IMG/VR virus record: IMGVR_UViG_3300008116_001193
Location: 1 to 39,476 of that record
Strand: one strand, 5' to 3'
Source of the DNA: a virus
Length of the DNA stretch: 39,476 nucleotides
The number at the start of each line of letters is the position of its first letter. Positions within the stretch are counted from its first letter, which is position 1. Below, in pieces: positions 185 to 34,148 of this stretch. The notes under the pieces were generated by a model. The model was given only the letters and a program-made list of their open reading frames with translations. It did not search any database and was not told where the DNA came from. Both the position numbers and the translations under genes were made by a program.

Positions 185-893
185 GGTCTATTTCACAGAA
201 GAAACTGAAAAGGCAATAATCGCATACAATAAATCTGAAGATTTAGATGTAAGAGAACAATTATTTAGAAGTAAAATACAAGGACCGCTTGATAAGCTAG
301 CAGAGAATGTTATCAATCGGTTCAAATTTCCATATATGGAGGGTACCTTCGATGAAATCAAAGCGCAGGTAGTCTCCTTTCTGGTTATCAATCTTCATAA
401 ATTTACTGAAGATAAGGGTAAAGCGTTTTCATATTTTAGTGTTATTGCTAAAAATTATTTGATTTTACACAATAATAACTCCTATAAGGAAGAAAAACGA
501 GTACTGTACTTCTCAGACCAAACGGAAGATTCATTTAGTTTGGAAGAAATGCTTGTCGTAGAGCCGGAAACACGGGATTCTACAGTAGACATGAAGGAAT
601 TCCTAAAACTGTTGGTAGAATACTGGGAATTCAATCTTGACCGCTTTTTTAAGAAGAAACGAGACAAGGAAATTGCAGCTGCGATAGTTAAACTCATCGA
701 ACGTATTGATAATATTGACAATTTCAACAAAAAGGCCCTCTATCTTATGGTAAGGGAAATGACCAATTATAAGACTGCTCATATCACGAAGGTTATTAAC
801 AAGATGCGACCCCAAATTTTGAAGATGTTGAGGGAATTTAGACGAAACGGACATATTTCAGACCCTACTACATATTTCTCATATAAAAAGTAA
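147..893 (+). CDS. T4 gp55-like late-transcription sigma factor
   Basis: Predicted 248-aa sigma factor of the T4 gp55 type, which lets host RNA polymerase recognise the short late promoters of T4-like phages. The central part (about residues 60-115, TFDEIKAQVVSFLVINLHKF then KAFSYFSVIAKNYLI) has the helical region-2 pattern, in which a growing fraction of the chain is followed by an aromatic-rich stretch that contacts the -10 element. The C-terminal third is basic and helical (about residues 200-235, ITKVINKMRPQILKMLREF). T4 gp55 is 185 aa, so this version is longer. The ATG at 147 overlaps the previous reading frame. The gene ends in a hairpin at 892-920, after which late structural genes begin. 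The family call rests on region-2 pattern and gene order; I could not run a profile search. Confidence 0.75.
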   Translation: MATTTPARKKNDKVYFTEETEKAIIAYNKSEDLDVREQLFRSKIQGPLDKLAENVINRFKFPYMEGTFDEIKAQVVSFLVINLHKFTEDKGKAFSYFSVIAKNYLILHNNNSYKEEKRVLYFSDQTEDSFSLEEMLVVEPETRDSTVDMKEFLKLLVEYWEFNLDRFFKKKRDKEIAAAIVKLIERIDNIDNFNKKALYLMVREMTNYKTAHITKVINKMRPQILKMLREFRRNGHISDPTTYFSYKK

Positions 894-920
894 ATCCTAT
901 CTATTTATAATATAGGATTT
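892..920 (+). terminator. Hairpin after the sigma gene with CTATTTATA in its loop
   Basis: A perfect 9-bp inverted repeat (AAATCCTAT at 892-900, ATAGGATTT at 912-920) encloses an 11-base loop, CTATTTATAAT, starting within the stop codon of the sigma gene. A short T run overlaps the right arm. It may end transcription of the sigma gene. The loop also contains TATAAT (906-911) on the + strand and, on the - strand, TATAAATA, which is the T4 late promoter octamer. It may therefore be a promoter instead of, or as well as, a terminator. Related hairpins lie at 20996-21020 and 34123-34148. Confidence 0.55.
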
Positions 921-932
921 TAGGGGGTCTTT

Positions 933-1316
933 ATGGATATCAATTCGGAACTGTATGATGGGAAGAGTTTAGCCGACATCTTCACCGAAATACACAAAAA
1001 CACTGACAGTAAACGGGCACAAATCAACTCGTTTATTATGAAAATGGTCCAACTCATTCGCACTCCAGAAGATGCGGCTGTGATTGGACCAATTGTGCAG
1101 GGATTCTTGGAAGTGAACGTCAAAAATGACGAACACTTGGTTCGTGTCGCACAAATTGCACAACGAATCGTGTCAGTTGGGGTCAAATCCAACGCATCAT
1201 TAGAGGGATTACTATCAGAATCAGAGAAGGAAGCATTACTTAAGGATATCACAACGGAAATCCAAGACCTTCAAGAAGATGTGAAGGACTTGGATGATGT
1301 TTTTGCGGAGAAGTAA
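933..1316 (+). CDS. Conserved-looking hypothetical protein, 127 aa
   Basis: A 127-aa mostly helical soluble protein with no signal peptide, membrane segment or recognised motif. The C-terminal 35 residues are strongly acidic and probably coiled (ITTEIQDLQEDVKDLDDVF). The ATG at 933 has a strong Shine-Dalgarno run (AGGGGG at 922-927). Its stop TAA at 1314-1316 is followed directly by the GTG start of the spike gene, so the two are probably translationally coupled. This position suggests a role in baseplate hub or spike assembly, for example as a chaperone or small hub component, but that is inference from neighbours only. Confidence 0.7.
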   Translation: MDINSELYDGKSLADIFTEIHKNTDSKRAQINSFIMKMVQLIRTPEDAAVIGPIVQGFLEVNVKNDEHLVRVAQIAQRIVSVGVKSNASLEGLLSESEKEALLKDITTEIQDLQEDVKDLDDVFAEK

Positions 1317-2693
1317 GTGTCATCTTTTGGACCAACTGCATACAACATAGATATCAACCAACTGGGAGCTTCACAGTTCCCAAGATTTGCTGTATCACAA
1401 CCAACCCCATATCAAGACGGATTAGTTGAGGATGTTATTCTAAACGAGTTACACCCACAATACGCAGCTGATGGAAGTAATGTAGGTATGGTGCAAGTAC
1501 GATTCATTCCAGGTGACCGTGGTGTTCCAAAAGAAAAATTAAACTGGGTAGCTCCGATAGACTCCAGTATACGAGAATATCCGTTAAAAAACGAACTAGT
1601 ATTGGTGTTTTATTCATTAGGTAGATTGTTTTATACCCGTAGAATTAATTCTACAAACAAAACCACGGAAAGTTCTTGGCCAGGATTAAGTGAACGATTC
1701 TCGCCACAAGTTCGATCAGACAATAGAAGTGATGCAGCTCAAATTGCTGCACAAGGTGGTACTCCATATCGTCCGTGGGGAATGAAACAACAATTTAGTT
1801 TGGGTGATGAATTTAGTGAAAATCCTGCAGTTCGTATGGTTCGTCCAAATGAAGGTGATTTAATCATACAAGGACGATTTGGGAATACTGTTCGGTTTGG
1901 TTCTAGTTTGTTCAGTAATCCAAATACCGCATCACCACAACCAAATCTAATATTTTCGGTTGGGCAAAGTCCAAATAAGGTTACATCTATTGATATTAAT
2001 AACGATGGTACTAACGAAACTGTTGCTGGGGGTCCATACGGATTAACCTACGAAGATATCAATAAAGATAAAAGTAGTTTTTGGATGGTAGTGGATGAAA
2101 AAATAGTACTTGACCCCGCAACCAAATCTACTATAGCGCACCTACGGTCAACAGAATCATCCGACTCTACCAAATACACCGGAGCACAGATTTTTCTAAA
2201 TTCTGATAGAGTCATTTTAAACAGTAAAGTAAATGAAATATCGTTGTTTGCGAAAAAAGAAATCAACCTAAGTGCAGTAGAGTCAATTACGATAGATTCA
2301 GCAAAATCAGTGTTTATTACGGCAGAACGAGATATTGAAATATCCACGCCCAGAGATTTGGTACTCTCAGGCCGTTCTGTTAGTATAAATGTGACAAATG
2401 ATATAGCTCAGGGAACCTCAGGAAACTACATAATATCGGGTAAAAAGATATTTATAGGGGCGTCACCAAACGATACAACACAACCAATGGTGTTGGGCGG
2501 TGAGTTGGCAGCATGGTTACAGAATTTAATGGACGCATTTATTGTAGAAATACCTAAATCTATTGCTACACTAAATCCAGTCCCATTTGTCAAAGCTATA
2601 ACTGAATTACGGATAAAACTCGGAGCACCGGGCATTCCACAAGCGGCTATATTCAATAGTACTAGTAACTTTACTTCTAAAACTAACGACTGA
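1317..2693 (+). CDS. gp5-like baseplate central spike protein without lysozyme domain
   Basis: A 458-aa protein predicted to form the membrane-piercing spike at the centre of the baseplate. The N-terminal part (about residues 35-115, VEDVILNELHPQYA, VQVRFIPGDRG, NELVLVFYSLGRLFYTRRIN) fits the OB-fold of gp5/VgrG-type spikes. The C-terminal part (about residues 295-385) is a run of short beta strands with repeating hydrophobic/polar alternation (NSDRVILNSKVNEISLFAKK, INLSAVESITIDSAK, VFITAERDIEI), typical of the intertwined triple-stranded beta-helix. T4 gp5 carries a lysozyme between these two parts. No lysozyme-like segment is visible here, and the middle is instead a Ser/Asn-rich linker. 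The start is GTG at 1317, right after the upstream stop, with GGAG about 8 bases before it. The next gene starts three bases after the stop. Confidence 0.75.
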   Translation: MSSFGPTAYNIDINQLGASQFPRFAVSQPTPYQDGLVEDVILNELHPQYAADGSNVGMVQVRFIPGDRGVPKEKLNWVAPIDSSIREYPLKNELVLVFYSLGRLFYTRRINSTNKTTESSWPGLSERFSPQVRSDNRSDAAQIAAQGGTPYRPWGMKQQFSLGDEFSENPAVRMVRPNEGDLIIQGRFGNTVRFGSSLFSNPNTASPQPNLIFSVGQSPNKVTSIDINNDGTNETVAGGPYGLTYEDINKDKSSFWMVVDEKIVLDPATKSTIAHLRSTESSDSTKYTGAQIFLNSDRVILNSKVNEISLFAKKEINLSAVESITIDSAKSVFITAERDIEISTPRDLVLSGRSVSINVTNDIAQGTSGNYIISGKKIFIGASPNDTTQPMVLGGELAAWLQNLMDAFIVEIPKSIATLNPVPFVKAITELRIKLGAPGIPQAAIFNSTSNFTSKTND

Positions 2694-2695
2694 TT

Positions 2696-3250
2696 ATGGC
2701 AATACCTAGTAACTTATTACCAATAAATAATCCGTTTAGAGCAGAGGTAGAGGAACTTCCAACTATATCACCACCAACTACTGGAGTTTCGGGAGTACCA
2801 AGTAATTTACTACCAGTTAACACCAGTAATATTTCTGGTTCGTTCCAATCGTTGGCGGGAAATATACCAACAGCTAATATACCCGAAATACCACAGTTTT
2901 CAATACTAAACACGGTTATACCAGATAGATTATTTACTACGGGAAGTATTGACCAAGTTAGAGCACGAACCCTAAATGCAGCAAGTACATATACCGGTGG
3001 GTTACCGGCATTACCAACGCTTCCAACAGTAAATTCATTTATACCATCAAGACCTCGAATACCATCATACGGTCAAATTAAGAACTATATCAAAACTAAG
3101 ATAGACAGAATTAAACAACGAAAACAACAAGCATCTGTAAAAGCATTAGATTCAGAACTTAAAAAACAAGAAAATCCGTTCAAGTATAGACAGTCGTTAA
3201 AAAACCAAGAAACAAAAAGCACGGTTCTTGGACGATTTAATAACCAGTAG
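2696..3250 (+). CDS. Pro/Asn-rich hypothetical virion protein, 184 aa
   Basis: An unrecognised 184-aa protein. The first 120 residues are low in charge and rich in Pro, Ser, Thr and Asn. They include a duplicated motif, PSNLLPINN near residue 4 and PSNLLPVNT near residue 36, and a repeated pattern of PALPTLPTV type. The last 60 residues switch to a basic helical tail (IKTKIDRIKQRKQQ...KSTVLGRFNNQ). An extended proline-rich arm with a basic helix fits a structural linker or tape-like element at the spike. Start ATG at 2696, two bases after the stop of the spike gene. No function can be assigned. Confidence 0.6.
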   Translation: MAIPSNLLPINNPFRAEVEELPTISPPTTGVSGVPSNLLPVNTSNISGSFQSLAGNIPTANIPEIPQFSILNTVIPDRLFTTGSIDQVRARTLNAASTYTGGLPALPTLPTVNSFIPSRPRIPSYGQIKNYIKTKIDRIKQRKQQASVKALDSELKKQENPFKYRQSLKNQETKSTVLGRFNNQ

Positions 3251-3261
3251 AGGGTAATATT

Positions 3262-3618
3262 ATGGATAAAGCATTATTCAGAGCGTATGTCAAGGAATTG
3301 GTCAAAGAACAAATTGAAGAATCGGTTGAAAAGGCCGTAAAAAAGATTCTTCCAGAAGTTCTTGGGGAAGCTATTGCAGAAATTAAGAGTAGTCAACCAA
3401 ATAAGGTAAACGAAGCAGCTACTGCTAAACCAAAACTTTCTCGTAGTCAACTAGCTGCAATGATGGGACTAGAACGCCATGGTGATACCATTACGGCAAC
3501 ATCAAAGAATGTGGGTCCAGTAATGCAAGCTCCACAAGGTATGACTGAAGATAATCCTACGCTACAAGCTATCAATAGAGACTATTCTGCTCTAATGAAA
3601 GCAATGAAGTTGACCTGA
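3262..3618 (+). CDS. Hypothetical protein, 118 aa, helical N-terminus
   Basis: A 118-aa unrecognised protein preceded by a good ribosome binding site (AGAGGG, about 10 bases before ATG 3262). Residues 1-45 form a charged amphipathic helix (VKELVKEQIEESVEKAVKKI). The rest is a flexible Ala/Met-rich segment containing SRSQLAAMMGLE and ending in YSALMKAMKLT. Short proteins starting with an E/K-rich helix recur in this genome (28256, 35049). It lies between the spike-associated gene and gp25, so a baseplate or assembly role is likely but unproven. Confidence 0.6.
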   Translation: MDKALFRAYVKELVKEQIEESVEKAVKKILPEVLGEAIAEIKSSQPNKVNEAATAKPKLSRSQLAAMMGLERHGDTITATSKNVGPVMQAPQGMTEDNPTLQAINRDYSALMKAMKLT

Positions 3619-3630
3619 TTGGAGATATAA

Positions 3631-4116
3631 ATGGCTCAGAAGTTTATTGGTATCACATTACCAGTTCGGTTAGGACAAACAGGAATGTTTGACCAATCAA
3701 CAACGGTAATTCAACAAGTTCGTTCTAACTTTAAGAATTTGATTCTTACGAAGAAGGGAGAACGGGTTGGGCAACCAGATTTGGGGTGCGACTTGTGGAA
3801 AATATTATTTGAACCATTAACTGAAGAGACATTAGAAAATGCTCGATTAGCAGTAGCGGAAGCAGTAGACCGGTGGTTACCATTTATTGAATTAATAGAT
3901 TTTCAAATTACTAAAACAGATGATGAAAATATTATCAGTATAAAATGTTTATACAGATTCAGAAATAACCCAAATGTAACCGACCAAATAACATTAGCAG
4001 CACAACAATTTGGTGCACCAACAGTTGGGTTTACAGAAGTTCCAGAAGATGCTGTACCTACACAAGCAGAAATTACAGCGCTTGAAAACGCTCGTCGTAT
4101 TAGAAGACTTAATTAA
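3631..4116 (+). CDS. gp25-like baseplate wedge protein
   Basis: Predicted 161-aa member of the gp25/GpW-like lysozyme-related family, which joins the baseplate wedge to the sheath and initiates sheath polymerisation. The diagnostic core is visible: VIQQVRSNFKNLILTKKGER followed by VGQPDLGCDLWKILFEPL (about residues 27-65), then a helix with ENARLAVAEAVDRWLPFIEL and a strand-rich end. In the classic family this core contains the R-x2-P-x-(F/Y)G type motif that begins a beta sheet. Here VGQPDLGCDL occupies the same place. T4 gp25 is 132 aa, so this one has about 30 extra C-terminal residues with a Pro/Ala/Glu-rich tail. A ribosome binding site GGAG precedes ATG 3631. The gp6 gene follows after 13 bases, the usual order in T4-like phages. 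Confidence 0.88.
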   Translation: MAQKFIGITLPVRLGQTGMFDQSTTVIQQVRSNFKNLILTKKGERVGQPDLGCDLWKILFEPLTEETLENARLAVAEAVDRWLPFIELIDFQITKTDDENIISIKCLYRFRNNPNVTDQITLAAQQFGAPTVGFTEVPEDAVPTQAEITALENARRIRRLN

Positions 4117-4129
4117 TTTGGAGTTTTAA

Positions 4130-6055
4130 ATGGCAACAAATCAATCAGTAATTATACAACCAAGACCAAATGTCAAGCAAATTAATTATGTCTCAAAGAC
4201 GTTCACGGACTTTAGACAAAACTTAATAGAATTTGCTAAAGCATATTACCCAAACGCATACTCAGATTTTAATGAAACTTCACCTGGTATGATGTTTATT
4301 GAAATGGCATCATATATTGGTGATGTCCTTTCATTTTATATTGATAATCAATTTAAAGAAAACTTGTTAGCATATGCTGAACAACAAGAAAATGTCATTT
4401 CTATCTCACAATTCCTCGGATACAAACCAAAATTAGTTTCACCGTCTACAGTGGTAGCAACATTATATCAATTAGCACCAGCAATACTTGATAATGGTGT
4501 TTATGTACCGGACCCACGATATTTGATTAAAGTAGCACGGGGAAGTACATTCACTACAAGCGGACAAACCTCAGTTCAATTCAGATTGGGTGAGGATGTA
4601 TATTTCTCAGACATTACCGCAGAAAACTATATAATTAATACATTTACTGGTGGTGGTAATCCTGACACATTTATTGTTAGTAAACCGGCCCTATTGGTAT
4701 CAGCTGAAGAAAGAACAACCACATTTTCTTTTGGAAGCGCACAAAAGTTTACCTCTGTACTAATGCCAGAGGAATCTATCATTGGTATTGAAAGTGTGGT
4801 TGATTCGAACGGTAATACTTGGTACGAAGTTGACTACTTAGCACAAGATGTGATTATGGATGACCTAGATGTTACTGATAATGGTGAAACAGGAATTTTA
4901 CCATCATCTAAGTTACGACTTCGCAGAGTTCCTCGCAGATTTGTTACCAGACTGAACAGAGATTCACGAATGGAATTAGTCTTTGGTTCGGGAACCGATA
5001 ACGAAGCCGAAGTAAATACGACATTAGACTCTAGACAAGTAGCAAATTCTCAGTATGGAAATACTATAGAAGATACATTAGGTAATGTAGCTATTAATAA
5101 TGTAAACTTTCTTAATAGCAATGCTTACGGAATAGCTCCAGCGAACATAACACTAACAGTAACTTATTTGGTTGGCGGTGGGGTAAATGCCAATACTCCT
5201 TCCAATACAATTAATGTTGTAGCTGAAACAACCACATTAAATGACACAACGGATTATACACAAGCAGAACTTAGTACATTTAATGCAGCAGTGCAAAGTA
5301 TCACTATTAACAACGACCTACCAGCTACTGGCGGTGGTGAAGGTGAATCTATAGACGAAATTCGTGAAAACGCATTGGCGTTCTTTAATGCACAAAATCG
5401 TGTAGTTACTGTAGAAGATTATGCAGTTCGTTCTTACGCACTACCTTCACGGTTTGGTCGTATAGCAAAAGCCTTTGCAGTAAGAGATGAACAGATTAAC
5501 AGAATATTAGCAGCACAAAATGACAAAGTGTATGTAGATAATCCAGTGCGTCCAAATGTAATAAACTTGTACACATTAGGATATGATACTAATGGTAATT
5601 TAGATGAATTAAATACATTGGTTAAAGAAAATTTAGCACGATATCTTGAACAGTTTAGAATGTTAACCGATGATGTTAATATTCTCGATGCATTTATTAT
5701 CAATATCGGCGTACAATTTGACATCTCTGTACTAAGAAATTACAATGTAAATGATGTTGTCGCACGAAGTATTGGGGCTGTACAAGATTTTTTTGATACA
5801 AGTAAATGGAACATCAATCAACCAATCATCTTAGCAGATTTGTCATACAATATTGGATTGGTAGAGGGGGTCCAGACAGTAAAGAGTGTTCGTATCTTCA
5901 ACAGATATGAATACAGAGATGGTCTTGGATATCAAAATTATCGATATAATATTGACGAAGCCACAATCAATGGGGTTATCTATCCAAGTCTCGACCCAAG
6001 TATCTTTGAGTTGAAATATCCAACAACTGATATTATAGGAAACGCTACCCAATGA
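4130..6055 (+). CDS. gp6-like baseplate wedge protein
   Basis: A 641-aa homologue of T4 gp6 (660 aa), a wedge subunit that dimerises to form the ring of the baseplate and belongs to the J family of contractile injection systems. The N-terminal signature is clear at about residues 20-85: YVSKTFTDFRQNLIEFAKAY, FNETSPGMMFIEMASYIGDV and LSFYIDNQFKENLLAYAEQ. A second typical segment occurs at about residues 400-450 (GGGEGESIDEIRENALAFFN then NRVVTVEDYAVRSYA), the J-family region in which GGxxxESxxxxRxxAP-like sequence precedes TxxDY. Start ATG 4130 follows GGAG. The stop overlaps the next start (ATGA at 6052-6055), so the downstream gene is coupled. Confidence 0.92.
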   Translation: MATNQSVIIQPRPNVKQINYVSKTFTDFRQNLIEFAKAYYPNAYSDFNETSPGMMFIEMASYIGDVLSFYIDNQFKENLLAYAEQQENVISISQFLGYKPKLVSPSTVVATLYQLAPAILDNGVYVPDPRYLIKVARGSTFTTSGQTSVQFRLGEDVYFSDITAENYIINTFTGGGNPDTFIVSKPALLVSAEERTTTFSFGSAQKFTSVLMPEESIIGIESVVDSNGNTWYEVDYLAQDVIMDDLDVTDNGETGILPSSKLRLRRVPRRFVTRLNRDSRMELVFGSGTDNEAEVNTTLDSRQVANSQYGNTIEDTLGNVAINNVNFLNSNAYGIAPANITLTVTYLVGGGVNANTPSNTINVVAETTTLNDTTDYTQAELSTFNAAVQSITINNDLPATGGGEGESIDEIRENALAFFNAQNRVVTVEDYAVRSYALPSRFGRIAKAFAVRDEQINRILAAQNDKVYVDNPVRPNVINLYTLGYDTNGNLDELNTLVKENLARYLEQFRMLTDDVNILDAFIINIGVQFDISVLRNYNVNDVVARSIGAVQDFFDTSKWNINQPIILADLSYNIGLVEGVQTVKSVRIFNRYEYRDGLGYQNYRYNIDEATINGVIYPSLDPSIFELKYPTTDIIGNATQ

Positions 6056-7092: not shown

Positions 7093-7095
7093 TTT

Positions 7096-13674: not shown

Positions 13675-13694
13675 TGGATTTAAATTAAAATACT

Positions 13695-13706
13695 TTATAC
13701 TTATAT
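13695..13706 (+). promoter_or_regulatory. Candidate late promoter motif TTATACTTATAT
   Basis: The 63-base gap before the gene at 13738 contains TTATACTTATAT followed by TAGT. The same 12 bases occur in the gap before the gene at 28256, followed by AGTAGT, 31 and 35 bases before the respective ATGs. These are two of the few real intergenic gaps in the window. A shared AT-rich motif at similar distance suggests a promoter, but it does not match the T4 late octamer TATAAATA exactly and was found by eye. Confidence 0.35.
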
Positions 13707-20800: not shown

Positions 20801-20998
20801 TCCAACTTTATGATTATCGACGAAGGGTTGGGTACGTTGGATGCCGAAAACCTGACGGCTATGCACACAATGTTCAGTATCTTAAAGGGTCAATTCGATT
20901 TCTTAGTAGTTATCAGTCACTTGGACATCGCTCGGGATATGGTGGACAAGGTAATTGAAATCAAACGGGAAGACGGTTTCTCGTATATTAATGTCTAA
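17834..20998 (+). CDS. Single-chain Mre11-Rad50 (gp47-gp46) recombination nuclease
   Basis: A 1,054-aa fusion of the two subunits of the phage recombination nuclease, which resects DNA ends for recombination-dependent replication and degrades host DNA. Residues 1-370 are the Mre11/SbcD/gp47 phosphodiesterase with all metal motifs: HCADIHI, VVAGDILH, VIAGNHDLN, LYHGPVHG and LLGDIHKYQ. From about 374 the Rad50/SbcC/gp46 ATPase begins (LKFTFSNMFSYGEGNEINF), with Walker A APNASGKSS (K414), a long coiled coil, a zinc hook C727xxC730, signature SSGMERF, Walker B NFMIIDEGLGTLD (D996, E997) and H-loop VVISHLD. T4 encodes these as two genes of about 339 and 560 aa. No stop or in-frame re-initiation site is seen at the join. 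It overlaps the primase stop and ends in a hairpin. Confidence 0.92.
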   Translation: MKITVPFTKLRTIAHCADIHIRLFKRHEEYRGAFTTFYEQLRQTDLTDGVIVVAGDILHAKTDMSPEMVELASEFLRNLADIAPTFVIAGNHDLNLSNMNRLDSLTPIIKNLNHQNLHYFKHSDIYQVADIDFAVFSILDDREQWPDVQNCRKNAKKIALYHGPVHGAQTDVKYVITNRHVGVDTFEGYDVVLLGDIHKYQVLQESNPVIVYSSSLIQQNHGESVTGHGWCLWNVEDCTHIFKELPNAYGYYTLELVEGKINFPTDMPKNVRLRLFTGNADTSLVKKTTAALRKRYNVIELSINKNRFNTSSPSYRKGTHLTTDVTNLNTQNSLIQDWIERNHETIDDELMKKIIAVNTKLNAQVNHDDHSRNIHWRPLKFTFSNMFSYGEGNEINFEHMQGLHGVFAPNASGKSSSMDALIFCLYDKTPRAFRGDHIMNNRKDTFECELKFEIDQDIYFIRRTGTRKKTGDVKVDVSFWKENEDGTHTSLNGEDRRDTNANIRNYVGSYEDFVLTALSSQTANALFIDKSHSERKDLLIQFMGLNVFDKLFDTANEECKEISGALKKFKKVDFDQVIADAQTKLEDNKVKHEKVETTITDLKEERDMLDEKLREWQNQKRPVPNITLDMDVLISTLAKSVDQILEYSEGKVDAEKRLEAINTSIKERTQAIVDANIPELRQSVEEYNKLSALLNKGSSALKLTTSKVTEKEKFKTKLESYKYNPDCNVCVENNKSIIEDMESVTHELVDLYELQSKQEDAVNEIKQQMEPLVDKVNLCAHYEKLQNEVQQFQKKAGTVELEIQKLITNIEKCDRQREQTEKDIELFKTNEDNIRHNKEIDMHIGHVEYDINVSKKAMDKLEKQLRELHGEIKVLEATKADVLNQIKEAEELEDTYEAYKYYMEAVGRDGVPYELMSRAIPAIESEINNILTQIAEFTISLEVDGKNILGKLNYDHERIWPLENSSGMERFISSLAIRVALLNASNLPKSNFMIIDEGLGTLDAENLTAMHTMFSILKGQFDFLVVISHLDIARDMVDKVIEIKREDGFSYINV

Positions 20999-21020
20999 CT
21001 CAACTATTTATATTGAGTTA
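20996..21020 (+). terminator. Hairpin after the Mre11-Rad50 gene with CTATTTATA loop
   Basis: A perfect 8-bp inverted repeat (TAACTCAA 20996-21003, TTGAGTTA 21013-21020), beginning with the stop codon, encloses exactly CTATTTATA. The same nine bases sit in the loop of the hairpin at 892-920, while the stems differ in sequence. There is no T tract after the stem, so it is not a textbook intrinsic terminator. It marks the border between the DNA-metabolism island and the next late gene. The - strand of the loop reads TATAAATA, the T4 late octamer. Confidence 0.5.
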
Positions 21021-21039
21021 GGACTCTAAACGAGACTGT

Positions 21040-22854
21040 ATGGCAAAGACAAAAAAGACTATACAATTAAAAAATTTAGCACAATATGATGTATTGATTG
21101 AAGATAGATCTGCGTCTTCTACATATTTTCAAGTAACGAATCTACCACCATCTTTTACTGGTGGTAGAAATTCGTTTTTACTGGCAGGGTCATCCGCATT
21201 AAAATCTGCGTCTAATATTCAAATAGAAATAATAGACGCAGATGGGATACCTATTTTCCAAAATCCAATACAAAAATATGTACAAGGAAATTCTAGATTA
21301 GTTTCCGTAGAAGTGACAGAAAACACAGCTGTTGGGTTTGCTACCATCGTTATATTGGGGCAGGCTACAGTATTACCGAATGGCCAACCAGTACCACCGG
21401 ATTGGCAAAATTCATATAATGTTCGTTGGACTAAACAAATACTAGTAGAGCGAAACTTAAGAAATTCCTCTCCACTTATATTAAGAGACACACCAACAGT
21501 GTTTTCTGAAGAAAATAGATTATATAGTGTATTAACTTCTTCATTTGTAACCGCAAGTACACCGTTTACAGCAAGTTTGACTCCTACACTATATTCTGGG
21601 TTTCAAATTGGATATACAATTAAAGCAGAGTCACCAACGGTGTTTTCGGAGGATTACTTTGGTGGGTATATAACTGGCTCTATGATTATAGATGGAATAA
21701 GCGCCAGTCTGTATCTACCGATAACAGATGTACTGAATACAACTACAGCATTTAGCACTGGTGAATTAATTAAAACAACAGATGGTCGAATTGTAGATAA
21801 AATTTATTTACGGAGTGGTAGCTATACTACATCATTATTTGGGTCATCATCTGCAATAAAAACCACAGCTCAGTTAGTATATAATACATCAAGTATAAAG
21901 GATAATCATATTCCTGTGTCGTATGCAAAACTTCGTTTAGTAAATTTGAACACAGTAAGCGGTGAAATATTTAAATTCAAAGTGTACAGTAAAGTTTCTA
22001 CTAATCTATCCGATTATAAATTAGTAGCGGAAGTACCGATAGCTACATCTGAATTATTGGTGACCAGTTCTATTCGTGGTAATTTACCAATAGGTGATTT
22101 ATATGTAGTACCCACAGCATCAAATTGGTATTCTGATAGACTAGAAACTAGTTCAAATGCGATATATACAATATCAGGATCTGCTGCTTACTATAACCCA
22201 ACAGTTACTAGTATAAATCCGCCAATTACAATGTCTATTACTGATGATGTATTATTGCGGTCACTTCGTTCAGTAATACCGACATTTAACAATACAAATT
22301 ATGCAGGATATGTATCGGCAAGTGGATACTTTATAGGAAATAAAAAATCGGTACAACTATTCCCAACAACAGAATATACCTTGCAATTCGATGCGGTTTA
22401 TAAAAAGACAGTTGGAGCGGTAAATTTAACTGGTGTGGACTCAAAGGTTGATATTTATCTTATAGGGGTAGAAGGCACTAAAGTTATTGACAACAATCCT
22501 TTAGGACAAAAAATCGGTACATTAACTTTACCGAGCGGAGCAGAAACTTATTGGTACCAAGACCAGCAACTTAACTTTACCCCACAATTAGCTGCGGCTG
22601 GAAATGTGGGTATACGATTCGTTGTAAGCAATGGATTCTGGTATTTTTCTGAAATATCATTAAAACCAGCATCGGATAGACTATTTGCACCAGATGAAGC
22701 ACAAATTTTAGTACCAAACACAGAATATTATAATGAATTATTACAACATAAGATAGAATTTTTTGATATCAATAGTAATTCAACAGATATAGCTATAGAA
22801 TCTATTCCTACCTTCTTTACTGGCTCGAATATTGATTTGGGTACAATACCATGA
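21040..22854 (+). CDS. Probable tail/virion structural protein, 604 aa
   Basis: A 604-aa beta-rich protein with Ser/Thr-rich composition similar to the other virion proteins and no catalytic motif. The N-terminus is KKTIQLKNLAQYDVLIEDRS. A conserved-looking central block reads SYNVRWTKQILVERNLRNSS and PLILRDTPTVF. The C-terminal third contains ATEYTLQ-like jelly-roll strands (TTEYTLQFDAVYKKTVG; QDQQLNFTPQLAAAGNVGIR; FWYFSEISLKPAS), a pattern like carbohydrate-binding modules of fibre proteins. It follows a hairpin boundary and its stop overlaps the next gene (ATGA at 22851). The role in tail or fibre is inferred; the exact family is not recognised. Confidence 0.6.
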   Translation: MAKTKKTIQLKNLAQYDVLIEDRSASSTYFQVTNLPPSFTGGRNSFLLAGSSALKSASNIQIEIIDADGIPIFQNPIQKYVQGNSRLVSVEVTENTAVGFATIVILGQATVLPNGQPVPPDWQNSYNVRWTKQILVERNLRNSSPLILRDTPTVFSEENRLYSVLTSSFVTASTPFTASLTPTLYSGFQIGYTIKAESPTVFSEDYFGGYITGSMIIDGISASLYLPITDVLNTTTAFSTGELIKTTDGRIVDKIYLRSGSYTTSLFGSSSAIKTTAQLVYNTSSIKDNHIPVSYAKLRLVNLNTVSGEIFKFKVYSKVSTNLSDYKLVAEVPIATSELLVTSSIRGNLPIGDLYVVPTASNWYSDRLETSSNAIYTISGSAAYYNPTVTSINPPITMSITDDVLLRSLRSVIPTFNNTNYAGYVSASGYFIGNKKSVQLFPTTEYTLQFDAVYKKTVGAVNLTGVDSKVDIYLIGVEGTKVIDNNPLGQKIGTLTLPSGAETYWYQDQQLNFTPQLAAAGNVGIRFVVSNGFWYFSEISLKPASDRLFAPDEAQILVPNTEYYNELLQHKIEFFDINSNSTDIAIESIPTFFTGSNIDLGTIP

Positions 22855-25742: not shown

Positions 25743-25748
25743 GGTTAT

Positions 25749-26606: not shown

Positions 26607-26613
26607 AGGTTTT

Positions 26614-28203: not shown

Positions 28204-28208
28204 ATACA

Positions 28209-28220
28209 TTATACTTATAT
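28209..28220 (+). promoter_or_regulatory. Candidate late promoter motif TTATACTTATAT, with weak downstream hairpin
   Basis: Second copy of the motif found at 13695-13706, here in the 52-base gap between terminase and the next gene. A 6-bp inverted repeat ATAGTA (28219-28224)/TACTAT (28236-28241) followed by TTTT overlaps it and could end terminase transcription. Found by eye, so confidence is low. Confidence 0.35.
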
Positions 28221-28255
28221 AGTAGTGTCTTTATATACTATTTTTGAGGCAAAGT

Positions 28256-28954
28256 ATGAAAAAAGAAGAACTTAAACAAATGATTCGGGAAGAACTCAAA
28301 TCAGTATTAAGTGAACAGGCCTATCAATGGTGGATGAAACCAGCTGAAGCAGAAACGCCGGACGCCCATTTAAATCCAAGTCAAGTTCACGAAGATGTCG
28401 AAGATTCTGTAAATGAAGATGAATACGATAAAAAGCGTGACCAACACCCATATTGGGGGCAAACTGGTCGTCCATATACCCCAAAATCATACGGTAAACC
28501 AAAAACTCCGGCAAAGAGTTTTCGCCAAGTATTTACAAGAGCTTTGGTTGCAACAAAAATCAAATATAAAGATGCTGAAGGAAAGGAACACGAAGCTACG
28601 GTGTCATCTTTATTGAAGTATCCAAAAGACCATCCTGGATATAAAGCAGCTGCCAGATTATATGCATCTAGTATGGCACGAGCACCAAAAGATGAAGGTG
28701 TATGTGAAGGAGAGGGGTGTTTAGACGAAAAGTCAGTTCCCCAACCATACAACCGTAAAAGTGCTCGTAAAATGAGTAGATCTCAAGTAGAACTTCGTAA
28801 AAAAATTGGTCAAGCTATGATGCGAGATGAAAAGAAGGTCAGTAAGTTCCGTAAAAAGTATGGTGACGAATGGAAAGACTATCTTTGGGCATCAGCATCA
28901 GCCGCAGCATTCAGACAAAGTGGTGGTAAAAGTGATGATAAGCGGAAAAAATAA
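28256..28954 (+). CDS. Hypothetical basic protein, 232 aa
   Basis: The start chosen is ATG 28256 because GAGG lies at 28246-28249, seven bases before it. An in-frame TTG at 28244 has no such site. The 232-aa protein begins with a charged helix (MKKEELKQMIREELKSVLSE), like those at 3262 and 35049, followed by an acidic linker and a basic domain (YKAAARLYASSMARAP; MSRSQVELRKKIGQAMMRDE; YGDEWKDYLWASASAAAFRQ). No catalytic motif is recognised. Two cysteines lie close together (VCEGEGCLDE). The stop overlaps the next ATG. It may be a head-associated protein, given its place between terminase and portal. Confidence 0.6.
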   Translation: MKKEELKQMIREELKSVLSEQAYQWWMKPAEAETPDAHLNPSQVHEDVEDSVNEDEYDKKRDQHPYWGQTGRPYTPKSYGKPKTPAKSFRQVFTRALVATKIKYKDAEGKEHEATVSSLLKYPKDHPGYKAAARLYASSMARAPKDEGVCEGEGCLDEKSVPQPYNRKSARKMSRSQVELRKKIGQAMMRDEKKVSKFRKKYGDEWKDYLWASASAAAFRQSGGKSDDKRKK

Positions 28955-30141
28955 TGAAGTATTCATCATTTTTTAATTTTGAACAATACCACCATCCTCA
29001 CAAAAGACACGACCCACCTGGGTCAGAAGATGCAGATGTGAATAATGATGGTAAAGTTGACAAAAATGACAAGTATATAATGGCAAAACGCCGGTTATAC
29101 AGACAATATCAAGCAGCACAAAAAGATAAAAAAGCTACAGAATTTTCTACACCAAAGTTGGAGAACAACATGATTAGATTGTCAGCACTAGTGAATCTAC
29201 AGGCATTAAAAGAAGAATCACACGAAGAACCAACACCAGCTCCAACTGTAGCTGTTGATAAAAAGTCACGGGTTGAAATGAAGCTTAAGAAGCTTAAAGA
29301 AATGCAAATGACCCCAGACCAAGAAAAGAAAGTTGATGAACTCTTGGCTCAATATGAAGAATTGTCTGCTAAACAAAAACAACTTGATGTAGACAAAGAC
29401 GGCAAGATTGAAGGTGATGATTTAGCAAAACTTCGTGCAGGTAAAACTGACGAAAAGTTAGATGCTGTCGGTCAAGAAGATGGTGATGTTGATAATGACG
29501 GAGATAAAGACTCATCTGATAAGTACTTACAAGCTCGTCGGGATACTATTGGTAAGGCAATGAAGAGTGAAGGTAGTGGTGAAGACCACGAAGCATCTAT
29601 GGCAAACTCTACTTTAGATTCAATTATCAAGCACGCAACCGAACTTAAGGGTAAGATTGGAATGGAAGAAAAGGACATTCCAGCATGGATTCAAGACCAC
29701 ATCGCAGTTGCTGAAAATAATCTTGACCAAGCAAATACCAGTTATCACGAATATGGCGATGAAGAAATGACTGATAAGCCAGTTGACCAAGATATGGCAG
29801 CTATGGCAGAATCAGTTAACGAAGGTGCTCCCGAAGGATGGGAAAAGACCGTTAAAGCAATGAAAAAACACAAGGAAATTGATAATCCTTGGGCACTTGC
29901 AAACTGGATGAAGAAGAAAGGATATAATCCAAAAAAAGAAGAAACCGAAGAAGCAGTAACTATAAAACCACAAGGTGGGTTAGCAGCTGCTATCTCGGCA
30001 TATAAAAATACACCAACACATAGTTCAAAGCAACATGTACAAGTGATGCCAGCACACAAACCAGGTGACACTTGGAAGACTGACAGTGGTAAGACAGCAA
30101 AGAAAAATTCAGATGGAACTATTTCTTACACAGTAAATTAA
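28954..30141 (+). CDS. Protein with three EF-hand/dockerin-like calcium loops, 395 aa
   Basis: A 395-aa acidic protein with three loops of the D-x-[DN]-x-DG type: DVNNDGKVDKND (residues 28-39), DVDKDGKIEGDD (from 145) and DVDNDGDKDSSD (from 178). Each is followed by a short helix such as KYIMAKRRLYRQY or KYLQARRDTIGKA. This matches calcium-binding EF-hand or dockerin-type loops, where the Asp/Asn side chains bind Ca2+. The rest is charged helix and flexible linker. The C-terminal 35 residues (KPGDTWKTDSGKTAKKNSDG) resemble the C-terminus of the 963-aa protein at 22851. No enzyme motif is visible. It could be a calcium-dependent structural or scaffolding protein. It overlaps the previous stop by one base. 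Confidence 0.65.
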   Translation: MKYSSFFNFEQYHHPHKRHDPPGSEDADVNNDGKVDKNDKYIMAKRRLYRQYQAAQKDKKATEFSTPKLENNMIRLSALVNLQALKEESHEEPTPAPTVAVDKKSRVEMKLKKLKEMQMTPDQEKKVDELLAQYEELSAKQKQLDVDKDGKIEGDDLAKLRAGKTDEKLDAVGQEDGDVDNDGDKDSSDKYLQARRDTIGKAMKSEGSGEDHEASMANSTLDSIIKHATELKGKIGMEEKDIPAWIQDHIAVAENNLDQANTSYHEYGDEEMTDKPVDQDMAAMAESVNEGAPEGWEKTVKAMKKHKEIDNPWALANWMKKKGYNPKKEETEEAVTIKPQGGLAAAISAYKNTPTHSSKQHVQVMPAHKPGDTWKTDSGKTAKKNSDGTISYTVN

Positions 30142-30142
30142 T

Positions 30143-30499
30143 ATGGTAGCCAAATTTATTTCTCTTTTACTTTCTAGTAGACAACAAGCACACATCTTTC
30201 ATCTTCAAACTTCTTCATATGCTGCACATAAGGCGTTACAAGAATATTATGAAGGAATCGTGGATTTAGTTGACGCTTATGTAGAAGCTTATCAAGGTCG
30301 ATATGGTATTCTCAAAGGATATATGCCAACTAATACTATTTTAGAAGATGACTCAGTAGTTAGCTATTTTACAGGTCTTCAAAAGTTTGTAGACGAAACC
30401 CGTGGTCAACTTCCACAAGACGGTGAACTTAATAACACTGTTGATGAAATTGCCGCAGTAATATCTAGTACGATTTATAAACTCAAATTCCTCAAATAA
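30143..30499 (+). CDS. Ferritin/Dps-like fold phage protein (DUF5856-type), 118 aa
   Basis: A 118-aa helical protein. Residues 10-50 read SSRQQAHIFHLQTSSYAAHK then YYEGIVDLVDAYVEAYQGRY. This His-x2-His-x(8)-His plus acidic helix pattern is what I remember for the phage family DUF5856, thought to adopt a Dps/ferritin-like four-helix fold. A standalone Dps has about 160 aa, so this is a short relative. Whether it binds metal cannot be told, although His and Glu/Asp residues at suitable spacing are present. It starts two bases after the preceding stop. The role in the infected cell is unknown. Confidence 0.6.
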   Translation: MVAKFISLLLSSRQQAHIFHLQTSSYAAHKALQEYYEGIVDLVDAYVEAYQGRYGILKGYMPTNTILEDDSVVSYFTGLQKFVDETRGQLPQDGELNNTVDEIAAVISSTIYKLKFLK

Positions 30500-30500
30500 T

Positions 30501-30803
30501 ATGAAATACAGAGATTTTTTTCCAGAAGGATATTCAGACGGTACTTCGTTTCCCCAAACCAAAGCAGATTTTGGTCAAGAAAAGCCAGAAGAAATGCCAG
30601 AAACCGACCCACAAGATTTAGCAGTTCGGTCGGCTCGTATCAGTGATATTCTCGAACGAAATACCCCAACCAGTCCAGAAAAGTGGGCGAAGGCAAAGGC
30701 AGCAGCACGTTCGAAGTTCAAGGTTTATCCATCTGCTTACGCCAATCTCTGGGCAGCAAAGAAATATAAGAGTATGGGCGGTGGTTGGAAGAAGGGAAAG
30801 TAA
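30501..30803 (+). CDS. Small basic phage protein, 100 aa
   Basis: A 100-aa protein. The C-terminal half carries a motif common in small phage proteins: EKWAKAKAAARSKFKVYPSA then YANLWAAKKYKSMGGGWKKG. The first half is acidic and Pro-rich (PEEMPETDPQDL). The basic aromatic tail suggests nucleic-acid or head-interior binding, but no function is known to me. It ends in TAATG, sharing its last base with the start of a 51-aa gene, and so begins a tight run of short, basic, mostly Cys-containing genes up to 31700. Confidence 0.65.
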   Translation: MKYRDFFPEGYSDGTSFPQTKADFGQEKPEEMPETDPQDLAVRSARISDILERNTPTSPEKWAKAKAAARSKFKVYPSAYANLWAAKKYKSMGGGWKKGK

Positions 30804-30958
30804 TGATTAAGTTAATGGACCTTATACCAGAAGAATGGACAAAAAAGTATAAGAAATCCATTAATTGTAGTAATCCCAAAGGCTTTAGTCAAAAAGCCCA
30901 TTGCGCTGGTCGCAGAAAGCGGAAGCGTGGTGGTACAACTAAATCAAAACCAGTATGA
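30803..30958 (+). CDS. Very short basic protein with two cysteines, 51 aa
   Basis: This short frame (156 bases including TGA) is flanked by overlaps on both sides: TAATG at 30801-30805 with the gene before and ATGA at 30955-30958 with the gene after, which is strong evidence for translation. It starts MIKLMDLIPEEWTKKY and contains INCSNPKGFSQKAHCAGRRK followed by RKRGG and a Lys-rich end. The C-x(3)-PKGFSQKAHC-x-GR motif is one I remember in other large phages. Two Cys, one His and high basicity suggest zinc- or nucleic-acid-binding, but this is inference. Confidence 0.75.
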   Translation: MIKLMDLIPEEWTKKYKKSINCSNPKGFSQKAHCAGRRKRKRGGTTKSKPV

Positions 30959-31284
30959 CACAATTCGCTGATATATTAGTTGAAGTATCAATCGACCTTG
31001 ACGAAAAGTACAAGACTAAAGGTAGTCTTGGTAAGTGGCTTCGTCAAAAGTGGGTTGATATTTCTCGTAAAGATAAAGACGGTAAGCATCCACCGTGTGG
31101 AGCTTCCGCTGGTAAAAAGGAACGAAAGGGCGGGTCATCAAAGTATCCAAAGTGTCGTCCAGCTCGTTCCGCAGCAGCAATGAGCAAAGGTGAAAAGCGG
31201 TCAGCAGTAGTTCGTAAGAGAAAAGCAGGTAATCCAGGTGGAAAACCAACAATGGTGTCCACATTCAAGAAGGAAGAAGAATAA
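30955..31284 (+). CDS. Basic cysteine-containing phage protein (DUF5872-like), 109 aa
   Basis: A 109-aa, strongly basic protein. The core reads KGSLGKWLRQKWVDISRKDK, then PPCGASAGKKERKGG, PKCRPARSAAAMSKGEKRSA and VVRKRKAGNPGGKPTMV. I remember this pattern (KWVDISR, PCG, PKCRPA, MSKGEKRSAV-RKRKAGN) as the phage family DUF5872, whose function is unknown. Only two Cys are present, so a complete zinc site in a monomer would need other ligands. The start overlaps the previous stop, and the last base is shared with the next ATG. Confidence 0.7.
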   Translation: MTQFADILVEVSIDLDEKYKTKGSLGKWLRQKWVDISRKDKDGKHPPCGASAGKKERKGGSSKYPKCRPARSAAAMSKGEKRSAVVRKRKAGNPGGKPTMVSTFKKEEE

Positions 31285-31700
31285 TGGAAAACTTAACTGA
31301 AGCTTGTTGGGAAGGATATAAGCAAGTAGGGATGAAAGACAAAAGTGGTAAAATGGTCCCAAATTGCGTTCCTATCAACGAAGAAGATATCATTGAAGAA
31401 TATTGTCCACGTTGTTTGGCAACTGAAATAGTACGGGCAGCAACTCAACCATTAGAAGAAGCCGAATATCACGGTCGTAAAGTTTCTCTTGGAAAACCAA
31501 TGCGTGGGGACGTAAAAAAGTTCAAGGTGTTTGTCAAAGACCCAAGTACCGGAAACGTCAAGAAGGTTAACTTCGGTGACAAGACGATGCGAATCAAGAA
31601 GTCCAATCCCGCTCGCCGTAAGTCATTTAGAGCAAGACACAACTGCGATACCCCAGGCCCACGGACAAAGGCAAGATACTGGTCGTGTCGGAAGTGGTAA
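31284..31700 (+). CDS. Basic cysteine-containing phage protein, 138 aa
   Basis: A 138-aa protein in two parts. Residues 1-35 contain ACWEGYKQVGMKDKSGKMVP then NCVP, a motif I remember in other large-phage proteins. A CPRC pair follows at about residues 41-44. The second part is basic: YHGRKVSLGKPMRGDVKKFK, VKKVNFGDKTMRIKKSNPAR, and RKSFRARHNCDTPGPRTKAR ending YWSCRKW. The RARHNCDTPGPRTKARYWSC segment is strikingly conserved-looking. It shares style with the two preceding small proteins. A nucleic-acid-related or head-interior role is a guess. Confidence 0.7.
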   Translation: MENLTEACWEGYKQVGMKDKSGKMVPNCVPINEEDIIEEYCPRCLATEIVRAATQPLEEAEYHGRKVSLGKPMRGDVKKFKVFVKDPSTGNVKKVNFGDKTMRIKKSNPARRKSFRARHNCDTPGPRTKARYWSCRKW

Positions 31701-31701
31701 T

Positions 31702-32214
31702 ATGAAAGTCTCCAGAAAGATATCTGACGCTATATTAAAGAAAATGAAGTATACATTCAATCCAGAAGAATTTCATATGGGAATGAATGTAGAGATGGAA
31801 CATCAAGATGTGACTAATGGAAATGTGGTCAAAACAGCAAAAATAGCTTACTTAAGAAGTATGTGGAGAAATAAAATGGCATTATTAAAAGATTTACTCA
31901 GCGAAGTTACCAGTCAAGTTCCACGTAGAGTTCAATTGATGCGTGTAGAAGCGGTATTAGAAAACATCGCACCACAACTTAAGGAAGCTGACCAAAAGAA
32001 GCTTGCAGAAGTGTATATTGAATTAAAGCAATTAGCAGAAATGCTAAACGAAACTCCATATACTATCTTTAACGCAAACCAATGGGGTTTACTGGAAATG
32101 GTATTAAAGGGTAAAGTAGCGGAATTCAAGTTACTCGCAGAAGATATTGCAGAAGATAATAAAGATGTCGATGTCTGGCCATTGGCAACAGCACTCGACA
32201 CCGTTCTCATTTAA
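31702..32214 (+). CDS. DUF5661-like segment reading into a helical protein (170 aa as read); possible frameshifted pair
   Basis: As read, ATG 31702 gives 170 aa. I chose this start because it lies one base after the upstream TAA; a longer frame back to 31531 is out-of-phase shadow of the previous gene. Residues 1-52 resemble the small family DUF5661 (MKYTFNPEEFHMGMNVEMEH; VTNGNVVKTAKIA). After KIA the expected continuation is lost. The -1 frame at 31848-31874 instead reads LLKKYVEK and stops, one base before an ATG (31876) with a perfect GGAG. A single missing base near 31848 would therefore separate this into a 57-aa DUF5661-type protein and a 112-aa protein. As it stands the two are fused in frame. 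Confidence 0.55.
   Translation: MKVSRKISDAILKKMKYTFNPEEFHMGMNVEMEHQDVTNGNVVKTAKIAYLRSMWRNKMALLKDLLSEVTSQVPRRVQLMRVEAVLENIAPQLKEADQKKLAEVYIELKQLAEMLNETPYTIFNANQWGLLEMVLKGKVAEFKLLAEDIAEDNKDVDVWPLATALDTVLI
31876..32214 (+). CDS. Helical hypothetical protein, 112 aa, probable independent gene
   Basis: Probable true start of the downstream half of the previous frame. ATG 31876 has GGAG at 31865-31868 with 7-base spacing, better than most sites in the region. The 112-aa protein starts MALLKDLLSEVTSQVPRRVQ and is almost entirely helical (VLENIAPQLKEADQKKLAEV; YIELKQLAEMLNETPYTIFN; LKGKVAEFKLLAEDIAEDNK). Family not recognised. It is the last gene before the portal, with 10 bases between its stop and ATG 32225, and could be a head-assembly protein. 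Confidence 0.5.
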   Translation: MALLKDLLSEVTSQVPRRVQLMRVEAVLENIAPQLKEADQKKLAEVYIELKQLAEMLNETPYTIFNANQWGLLEMVLKGKVAEFKLLAEDIAEDNKDVDVWPLATALDTVLI

Positions 32215-32224
32215 GTGAGGGGTT

Positions 32225-34111
32225 ATGGCAGATACTAGTATTTACGGCCGCCTACGGAAACTGTTCGCAACAAATACAGTTGTCCGAAATGTAGGTGGAA
32301 AGAAGTTAAAAGTCGCTGATACCGACAATATCCAGTCGTTTATTAATAGACGGGGCATTGACCGATATCATCGAGTTTATTCGTCTATGACAGGTGGATA
32401 TGGTGCTTCGGGTGGTCGTTATGAATCCGCAGCAGCATTCCAAGGGTCACGTTTACAATTGTTCCGTGATTATGATATGATGGATAATGACCCAATCATT
32501 TCATCAGTAATGGACATCTACGCTGACGAATCAACCGTAAAGGACGAATTCGGTCAAGTACTTAGTATCCGCTCAAAAAATCAACAAATCCAAGATATTC
32601 TCCATAACTTATTCTATGACGTATTGAACGTTGAGTTCAATCTCTGGCCTTGGGTCAGAAATATGGCTAAGTATGGGGACTTTTTCTTATTCCTAGATAT
32701 TGATGAAAAGTATGGTGTCGTAAACGTCATTCCTCTTTCTGTGTACGAAACCATCCGTATTGAAGGCCAAGACCCAGGCAATCCATTCTCTGTTAAGTTC
32801 AAAGTAGAAAATGATTTCTTGGCACTTGGTAAAAAAGAATTTGACAATTACGAAGTTGCACATTTCCGACTACTTTCAGATACTAACTTCCTTCCATATG
32901 GTAAGGCAATGGTTGAAGGTGGTCGTCGTGTGTGGAAGCAATTGCAATTGATGGAAGATGCGATGTTGATTCATCGTATCATGCGTGCACCAGATAAGCG
33001 TAAGGTGTTGGTTGATGTTGGAAACATTCCACCAGCAGAAATCGATACACATATGCAACGTATCATCGACCGTATGAAGAAGGTACCACTCGTTGACCCA
33101 AAGACTGGTGATTACAATCTTCGTTACAATATGATGAACATTACAGAAGATTTCTATCTTCCTGTTCGTGGTAAGGATTCTGGTACAGATATTACGAATC
33201 TTCCAGGCCTTCAATTCAATGCTATCGAAGATATTGAATACCTTCGTAACAAGTTAATGGCAGCATTCAAGGTACCAAAGTCATTCCTTGGATACGAAGA
33301 AGATAATAGTGGTAAAGCATCATTGGCAGCACAAGACGTTCGTTTCGCACGAACCATTGAACGTATTCAACGCATTATGGTGTCAGAACTTACCAAAATT
33401 GCAATCATTCACTTATACGTTCAAGGATTCACCGACGAAGACCTTATCGACTTTGAATTAGAAATGACTTCACCATCGGTCATTTACGAACAAGAAAAGT
33501 TGAATCTTTGGAAGGAAAAGGTTGGATTGGCTAAGGATATTGCAGATAGTAAGTTCTTATCACGTGACTGGATTTACCATAACATTCTTCAAATTGCAGA
33601 AGATGATGCACGGTCAGAACAAGAAAAGATAGTGAAGGATGTGGAATGGGTTGGTAAGGCAGAAGCAGTACAACAACAAGCCGCACAACCACAACAACCG
33701 CCAATGGGCCCAGAGGGACAACCTGCTGAACCAGAAGCTGGAGAAGAACAGCCAGCGGAAGAACCAGAAAAATTAGATACCGTAGACGCGGTGTTAGCCT
33801 CATTAGAAGACATGCCAGAAGAAGAGGAAGTTGTAGATGATACAGAATTGGAAGAAGCCAAAATGGGTCGTCCTAAGACTGGTATGCAATTTGGCCAAGA
33901 TAGTCACCCACGCGGTCGCGACCCATTAGGTCATAAAGAAAATCTTGGCGCACTAAGAGTAGGGCAACAACGTAAACCATCTAGAAAATCCCCACTTTCG
34001 TTAGAAAATCACGAAGTTTCTAACTTAATTAAACAATTAAACGCCCATAAAATCGCACCAGAAACCTCTAGTATCTTAAACGAAGAAAATATCTTAGACA
34101 TAGAAAACTAA
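32225..34111 (+). CDS. Portal protein (gp20-like)
   Basis: A 628-aa portal subunit, forming the dodecameric ring through which DNA enters the head and to which neck and terminase attach. Hallmarks are visible: YDMMDNDPIISSVMDIYADE with STVKDEFGQVLSI (about residues 85-115), NVEFNLWPWVRNMAKYGDFF (about 137-156), HFRLLSDTNFLPYGKAMVE, RRVWKQLQLMEDAMLIHRIM and RAPDKRKVLVDVGNIPP (about 210-270), LPVRGKDSGTDITNLPG and FKVPKSFLGYEEDNSGKASL (about 318-375). T4 gp20 is 524 aa. The extra length is a C-terminal Gln/Pro/Glu-rich linker (about 480-545) and a basic tail (GRPKTGMQFGQDSHPRGRDP). A strong GAGGGG site precedes ATG 32225. Confidence 0.93.
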   Translation: MADTSIYGRLRKLFATNTVVRNVGGKKLKVADTDNIQSFINRRGIDRYHRVYSSMTGGYGASGGRYESAAAFQGSRLQLFRDYDMMDNDPIISSVMDIYADESTVKDEFGQVLSIRSKNQQIQDILHNLFYDVLNVEFNLWPWVRNMAKYGDFFLFLDIDEKYGVVNVIPLSVYETIRIEGQDPGNPFSVKFKVENDFLALGKKEFDNYEVAHFRLLSDTNFLPYGKAMVEGGRRVWKQLQLMEDAMLIHRIMRAPDKRKVLVDVGNIPPAEIDTHMQRIIDRMKKVPLVDPKTGDYNLRYNMMNITEDFYLPVRGKDSGTDITNLPGLQFNAIEDIEYLRNKLMAAFKVPKSFLGYEEDNSGKASLAAQDVRFARTIERIQRIMVSELTKIAIIHLYVQGFTDEDLIDFELEMTSPSVIYEQEKLNLWKEKVGLAKDIADSKFLSRDWIYHNILQIAEDDARSEQEKIVKDVEWVGKAEAVQQQAAQPQQPPMGPEGQPAEPEAGEEQPAEEPEKLDTVDAVLASLEDMPEEEEVVDDTELEEAKMGRPKTGMQFGQDSHPRGRDPLGHKENLGALRVGQQRKPSRKSPLSLENHEVSNLIKQLNAHKIAPETSSILNEENILDIEN

Positions 34112-34122
34112 CGAAGTGGGAA

Positions 34123-34148
34123 TTATCATACTATTTAATATATGATAA
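34123..34148 (+). terminator. Hairpin after the portal gene with CTATTTAATA loop
   Basis: A perfect 8-bp inverted repeat (TTATCATA 34123-34130, TATGATAA 34141-34148) encloses CTATTTAATA, one base longer than the CTATTTATA loops at 892-920 and 20996-21020. The stem sequence differs from both. No long T tract follows. It separates the portal from the prohead genes and may be terminator, promoter or RNA-processing site. Confidence 0.5.

Follow-up and report, generated by a model that had tools for sequence, protein, structure and literature searches.

Three hairpins between genes of a phage share the loop sequence CTATTTA(A)TA. We consider it likely that this loop supplies the core of a T4-type late promoter, and that the stems play a secondary part, serving as an RNA lock at some of the sites. 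The proposed promoter has the consensus TATTTATA on the plus strand, and it would probably be recognized by the phage's own gp55-like sigma factor (the product of ORF 147-893) together with host RNA polymerase. If the T4 geometry applies, transcription would start 5-6 nt past the motif, within each hairpin's 3' arm, with the result that late mRNAs would lack the 5' arm. From the conservation, orientation and spacing of the motif, the classes of genes that it precedes, the sigma homology and the predicted folds, we infer promoter activity, start sites, sigma-promoter pairing, timing and translation control. The window analyzed is the whole virus record of 39,476 bases.

Three hairpins with a common loop

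Hairpin 1 (892-920, plus strand) is formed by the arms AAATCCTAT and ATAGGATTT around the loop CTATTTATAAT, and it has a stem of 9 bp and a loop of 11 nt. Hairpin 2 (20995-21021, plus strand) presents the 9-nt loop CTATTTATA on a 9-bp stem of CTAACTCAA and TTGAGTTAG. This stem has a GTC/GAC extension with one bulge, and the hairpin taken alone has a folding z of -3.98. Hairpin 3 (34123-34148, plus strand) pairs TTATCATA with TATGATAA over 8 bp and has the 10-nt loop CTATTTAATA. The sequence-only reading that drew attention to these elements had placed all three correctly, although hairpin 2 is one base longer on each side than it gave. It was also right that they lie at functional borders, in that the bordering genes are identified as those for a candidate late sigma, an SbcC-like nuclease and the portal.

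Perfect stems of at least 8 bp (loop 3-14 nt) number just 13 in the window. CTATTTA has five copies there, none of them on the minus strand, and three of the five are within loops of stems of at least 8 bp. Chance in AT-rich gaps, which the earlier reading had named as the case against its own proposal, is dismissed because CTATTTA fell in the loop of an 8-bp stem in none of 300 dinucleotide shuffles of the window, as opposed to the three cases observed. A search of the window against Rfam gave no match at the gathering score.

Related loci obtained from scans numbered 80 for the portal gene, 39 for the SbcC-like nuclease gene and 80 for ORF 147-893. At all three gene borders, the relatives retain the linear motif CTATTTATA or CTATTTAATA, and their stems are broken or altered. 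Downstream of the portal gene, the ATG that follows is preceded by CTATTTAATATATG, TATATTTAATATATG or a near variant, and this holds for relatives whose portal identity is as low as 73%. The hairpin 3 motif takes the form CTATTTAATA or TATATTTAATA at this border, and the complete 8-bp stem is confined to near relatives. After ORF 147-893, CTATTTATA is retained in nearly all relatives. Here the hairpin 1 stem is largely retained in the near clade and altered in the distant clade, and one of its pairs occurs across relatives as A-T, as T-A and as both mismatched intermediates. After the nuclease gene, the CTATTTATA of hairpin 2 is invariant among the relatives listed (21 of 21), with arms that change or break.

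Among orthologues, close relatives have near-identical stems, whereas the stems of distant relatives are broken or shifted; the loop sequence is retained throughout, and the motif is conserved equally at sites that lack any stem. Because the loop is retained without its stem, it behaves like a DNA element and not like an RNA-hairpin motif; the stems would be dispensable for promoter function. The earlier claim of covarying stems around a conserved loop came from a comparison between unrelated sites, and it does not survive a comparison of orthologues, which keep the loop sequence but not the stems. Strict covariation is shown for none of hairpins 1, 2 and 3, and is seen only in an intragenic hairpin at 21135-21179. 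The related claim that structure matters is unsupported at hairpin 3 and ambiguous at hairpin 1. It holds at hairpin 2 only as a retained folding ability, with different stems in two clades.

A putative late promoter and its candidate sigma factor

The late promoter of T4 carries the octamer TATAAATA, which is recognized by gp55, and the start at +1 depends on gp55, gp33 and gp45. The octamer occupies positions -13 to -6 (PMC1524935), and T4 late promoters have no conserved -35 element (PMC2988020). Phage Aeh1 uses the late-promoter variant CTAAATA (PMC1524935). On the same strand, TATTTATA equals the T4 octamer at six of eight positions. The element had been noted as the reverse complement of the T4 octamer; this is exactly true of TATTTATA, but the orientation counts show that it is used as TATTTATA.

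Pooled over nine records, TATTTATA is found upstream of genes 73 times in the sense and 12 times in the antisense orientation, mostly at 20-45 nt from the ATG. Among the 8-mers found upstream of genes, it ranks first or close to first in most records. Copies in gaps are co-directional with the genes rather than opposed to them by 16 versus 1, 9 versus 0, 11 versus 2 and 10 versus 1 in four larger relatives. The T4 consensus TATAAATA is rare in the sense orientation upstream of genes in these records. The reverse complement of the sequence served as the control for motif counts. The uncomplemented reversed sequence is a poor control, since TATTTATA read backwards is ATATTTAT, which overlaps the motif.

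The cultured Flavobacterium phage immuto carries TATTTATA at 21 genes, versus 0 on the other strand; the upstream-region count over the nine records includes 7 antisense matches in immuto. Its targets include the genes for terminase, portal, sheath, tail tube, baseplate hub and tape measure, as well as the gene after portal. In immuto, the orthologues of the genes that follow hairpins 1 and 3 carry TATTTATA 22 and 26 nt before the ATG. In relatives, genes downstream of the motif encode tail fiber, head-tail adaptor, baseplate hub and tail tube. What is found upstream of late genes is a conserved octamer, oriented with transcription and near the start codon. TATTTATA is also present at several immuto genes that do not belong to the virion clusters, so the motif may not be strictly late. 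The papers searched describe neither a late promoter nor a late sigma for this phage group.

In the window, all putative promoter elements are on the plus strand. The core in hairpin 1 is CTATTTATA at 901..909, with a predicted start at ~915, and that in hairpin 2 is CTATTTATA at 21004..21012, with a predicted start at ~21018. Hairpin 3 contains CTATTTAATA, a variant one base longer, at 34131..34140, with a predicted start at ~34145. These starts assume the T4 geometry (-13 to -6). A probable variant late promoter, TACTTATA, which is one base off the late core, is located at 13698..13705, 40 nt before gene 13738; the immuto orthologue of this gene has TATTTATA 28 nt upstream. A second copy of TACTTATA, at 28212..28219 and 32 nt before gene 28244, is a possible variant late promoter.

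At four further loci (L217:6135, L229:323, L187:1019 and L194:718), TATTTATA is followed directly by a strong terminator-like hairpin and a T-run. A promoter active at these loci would yield an RNA of only ~40 nt.

The candidate gp55-like late sigma gene (147..893, plus strand), recognized by hhalign and by its predicted fold, ends at hairpin 1. It has orthologues in immuto (gene immuto26A_153) and Mel-JY01 and, weakly, in RM378. An alignment of the gp55 family was used because the family of ORF 147-893 gave a weak match to the single T4 gp55 sequence. Compared by hhalign, the profile of the ORF family and that of T4-type gp55 align with an E value of 6.5e-5 and a probability of 64%, collinear over 99 columns. 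The alignment is N-terminal and stops near residue 107. Control comparisons with 60 column-shuffled profiles score at most 24, versus 35 for the real pair. In the structure model, which is of moderate confidence (mean pLDDT 67.5), residues 5-115 match sigma domain 2 with Z up to 10.3, and the structure matches listed are sigma factors or parts of holoenzymes. Foldseek alone returned weak hits only, many of which are sigma factors, and hmmsearch of the family against PDB sequences gave nothing useful.

The product joins a predicted sigma domain 2 fold to gp55 similarity, albeit remotely. It resembles the T4 gp55 family in its collinear N-terminal 100 residues and in this predicted fold, but it is ~60 residues longer, has no significant match in PHROGs or Pfam, and shows a similarity that is remote. 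Members of the gp55 family have a C-terminal hydrophobic-acidic epitope that binds the clamp. Judged from the profile and fold comparisons, a divergent gp55, remotely matched and encoded just upstream of hairpin 1, is very likely present in the phage.

Predicted folding of read-through RNAs

Hairpins are over-represented around the promoter, though most late promoters are without them. Stems of at least 7 bp around the motif occur in a mean of 2.7 of 22 promoter clusters, versus 0.38 expected. For this estimate, promoters were clustered by downstream gene and one member of each cluster was drawn, and the expectation was obtained by swapping upstream flanks between clusters. We propose that, at places where transcription of an early or middle operon continues into a late gene, as at hairpin 2 and at homing-endonuclease genes of relatives, the stem and ribosome-site pairing would silence the late gene on the read-through RNA.

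The weaker folding of late RNAs compared with read-through RNAs was dropped as evidence, since it is expected of shorter RNAs in any case. Since the raw comparison depends in this way on RNA length, only the sequence upstream of the motif was shuffled, and the accessibility of the ribosome site was compared. At hairpin 2, the predicted read-through lock extends over 20973..21039 (plus strand). In it, ACGAGA, immediately ahead of the ATG at 21040, is paired with TCTCGT from the nuclease gene, and the structure is closed by hairpin 2. Accessibility of the ribosome site is 0.10, versus 0.50 with shuffled upstream sequence (p < 0.005). The same comparison gives p <= 0.05 in 16 of 21 relatives, which are not independent, so these p values must not be multiplied. 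The distant clade uses a different, unrelated stem.

A possible extended read-through fold at hairpin 1 (860..930, plus strand) is predicted to pair AGACCC with the SD AGGGGGTCT of gene 933. In the window clade, ribosome-site pairing at hairpin 1 is not better than with shuffled upstream sequence (p 0.17), and the distant clade has a weak trend toward such pairing. Hairpin 1 may act as a lock likewise. Hairpin 3 gives no ribosome-site pairing effect when compared with shuffled upstream sequence, and it may be a lineage-specific stem. The presence of a lock at hairpin 2 and its absence at hairpin 3 fit the map. The gene upstream of hairpin 2 is a replication/recombination gene (phrog_77) that leads into a gene with a putative late promoter, whereas hairpin 3 lies between two late genes.

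In relatives, TATTTATA is inside a predicted SD-proximal hairpin before endonuclease genes (HNH, GIY-YIG) at five sites: L211:1507, L211:14683, L181:1091, L181:1998 and L081:19031. Four of the five fold better than shuffles (MFE p <= 0.007), and no tail-tube, hub or adaptor promoter does so at this threshold. The SD is fully paired in the predicted read-through fold for the HNH genes downstream of L181:1091 and L211:14683 (p 0.000 and 0.003). The stem at L211:1507 is 16 bp. Like the seg43(25) hairpin of Aeromonas phage 25, this is a stable hairpin that resides just upstream of the RBS without covering it. It differs from the seg43(25) hairpin in that its loop contains the late-promoter motif and that an HNH gene follows it. 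The arrangement at the endonuclease sites is as known for I-TevI and segB of T4 and for mobE of Aeh1.

The intragenic hairpin mentioned above (21135..21179, plus strand) is GC-rich, terminator-like and followed by TTTTT, and it lies ~100 nt inside gene 21040-22854. Among nine near relatives, four of its 16 pairs have changes on both sides, which is covariation; the hairpin is absent from distant relatives. A speculative and rather doubtful extension of our model is that the hairpin 2 lock and the intragenic hairpin form one switch, a T4-type translational lock that doubles as an attenuator. Read-through from the nuclease operon would hide the ribosome site, and the untranslated message would fold the intragenic hairpin and halt transcription. 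Late transcripts, gp55-dependent and free of the 5' arm, would be translated, and their ribosomes would prevent the terminator from folding. Another terminator-like hairpin of the window, TACACCTCATTTGGGGTGTG followed by TGATTTTG, is found at 36789-36808, upstream of gene 36876.

Alternative functions and relation to T4

Terminators, RNA-processing sites, sites for a phage RNA-binding protein and promoters hidden in hairpins had all been offered as functions for these elements. The last is the one that motif conservation and orientation support, insofar as function can be read from DNA sequence. Each of the three hairpins follows a stop codon directly or closely, as would be expected of intrinsic terminators or of hairpins that stabilize the 3' ends of upstream genes. 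However, a GC-rich stem with a T-run behind it is found at none of the three, and terminator prediction gave nothing at these sites. Moreover, their loops are long and AU-rich and the loop sequence survives loss of the stem, all of which makes this function highly improbable. That one loop is presented on three different stems in the window could point to a phage protein that reads UAUUUAUA in its stem, in the manner of the T4 gp43 operator. We give this very little credence, because most TATTTATA sites in the records are stemless, the motif is no less conserved at such sites, and orthologues drop the stem and retain the motif. The virion polymerase of phage N4 uses promoters that require a hairpin; a promoter of this kind was rejected here, since most sites lack a stem.

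The motif at immuto genes outside the virion clusters would also suit a middle or constitutive promoter element used by a host sigma or another phage sigma, and not by a gp55-type late factor. This is unlikely, given that most annotated targets are virion genes, that the T4 late octamer is matched at six positions in the same strand, and that a gp55-like sigma is encoded. A different view accepts the late promoter and denies the lock alone, and so is compatible with the core of our explanation. The stems would be functionless products of chance or of short inverted duplications around an AT-rich promoter. The restriction of the hairpin 3 stem to near relatives and the stemlessness of most late promoters agree with this view, which we regard as possible though on balance not probable. 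Stems are enriched over swapped flanks, folding at hairpin 2 survives complete turnover of the stem, and the folds at endonuclease genes are strong. Our preferred reading is still a late promoter core whose stems would act as locks at some sites.

Like the T4 promoter, the proposed one is a short, AT-rich octamer ahead of virion genes, and the phage that carries it has a gp55-like sigma and a T4-type portal and terminase. The proposed promoter is unlike that of T4 in its core, TATTTATA (or TATTTAATA), in which two central positions are changed, and it also differs from the CTAAATA of Aeh1. Because the conserved octamer is not TATAAATA, we describe it as a T4-late-like promoter with a changed core, and not as the T4 consensus. 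In T4, structures at e, soc, 49 and I-TevI make the ribosome site inaccessible only on read-through RNA, and the late promoters of gene e and I-TevI were shown to be placed so that late transcripts lose the 5' part (PMC3014915, PMC2988022). The same late-promoter-in-hairpin arrangement occurs at T4 segB and Aeh1 mobE (PMC2988022). As in all of these cases, the putative late promoters described here lie in the 5' strand or loop of a hairpin, and the predicted start drops the 5' arm. As in the hairpins of T4 and Aeh1 that sequester the RBS, the ribosome site at hairpin 2 is predicted to be paired on read-through RNA, and the arrangement is found at homing-endonuclease genes of relatives. Unlike in those hairpins, the promoter core is different, hairpin 3 is without ribosome-site pairing, and the helix predicted to occlude the ribosome site at hairpin 2 is a separate, outer one whose other strand comes from the end of the coding sequence upstream.

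A survey of Far-T4 phages did not detect the T4 core transcription-regulation genes and considered that transcription patterns might differ from those of T4 (PMC4360716). The portal and sigma genes of the window have relatives in Rhodothermus phage RM378, the cultured reference of the Far-T4 group, and the window phage thus appears to be of the Far-T4 type. A divergent gp55 and a late-promoter core TATTTATA would mean that T4-type late control reaches this aquatic group with a changed promoter, which is testable in the cultured phage immuto. The arrangement of these elements suggests that the T-even phages are not alone in hiding late promoters within RNA locks.
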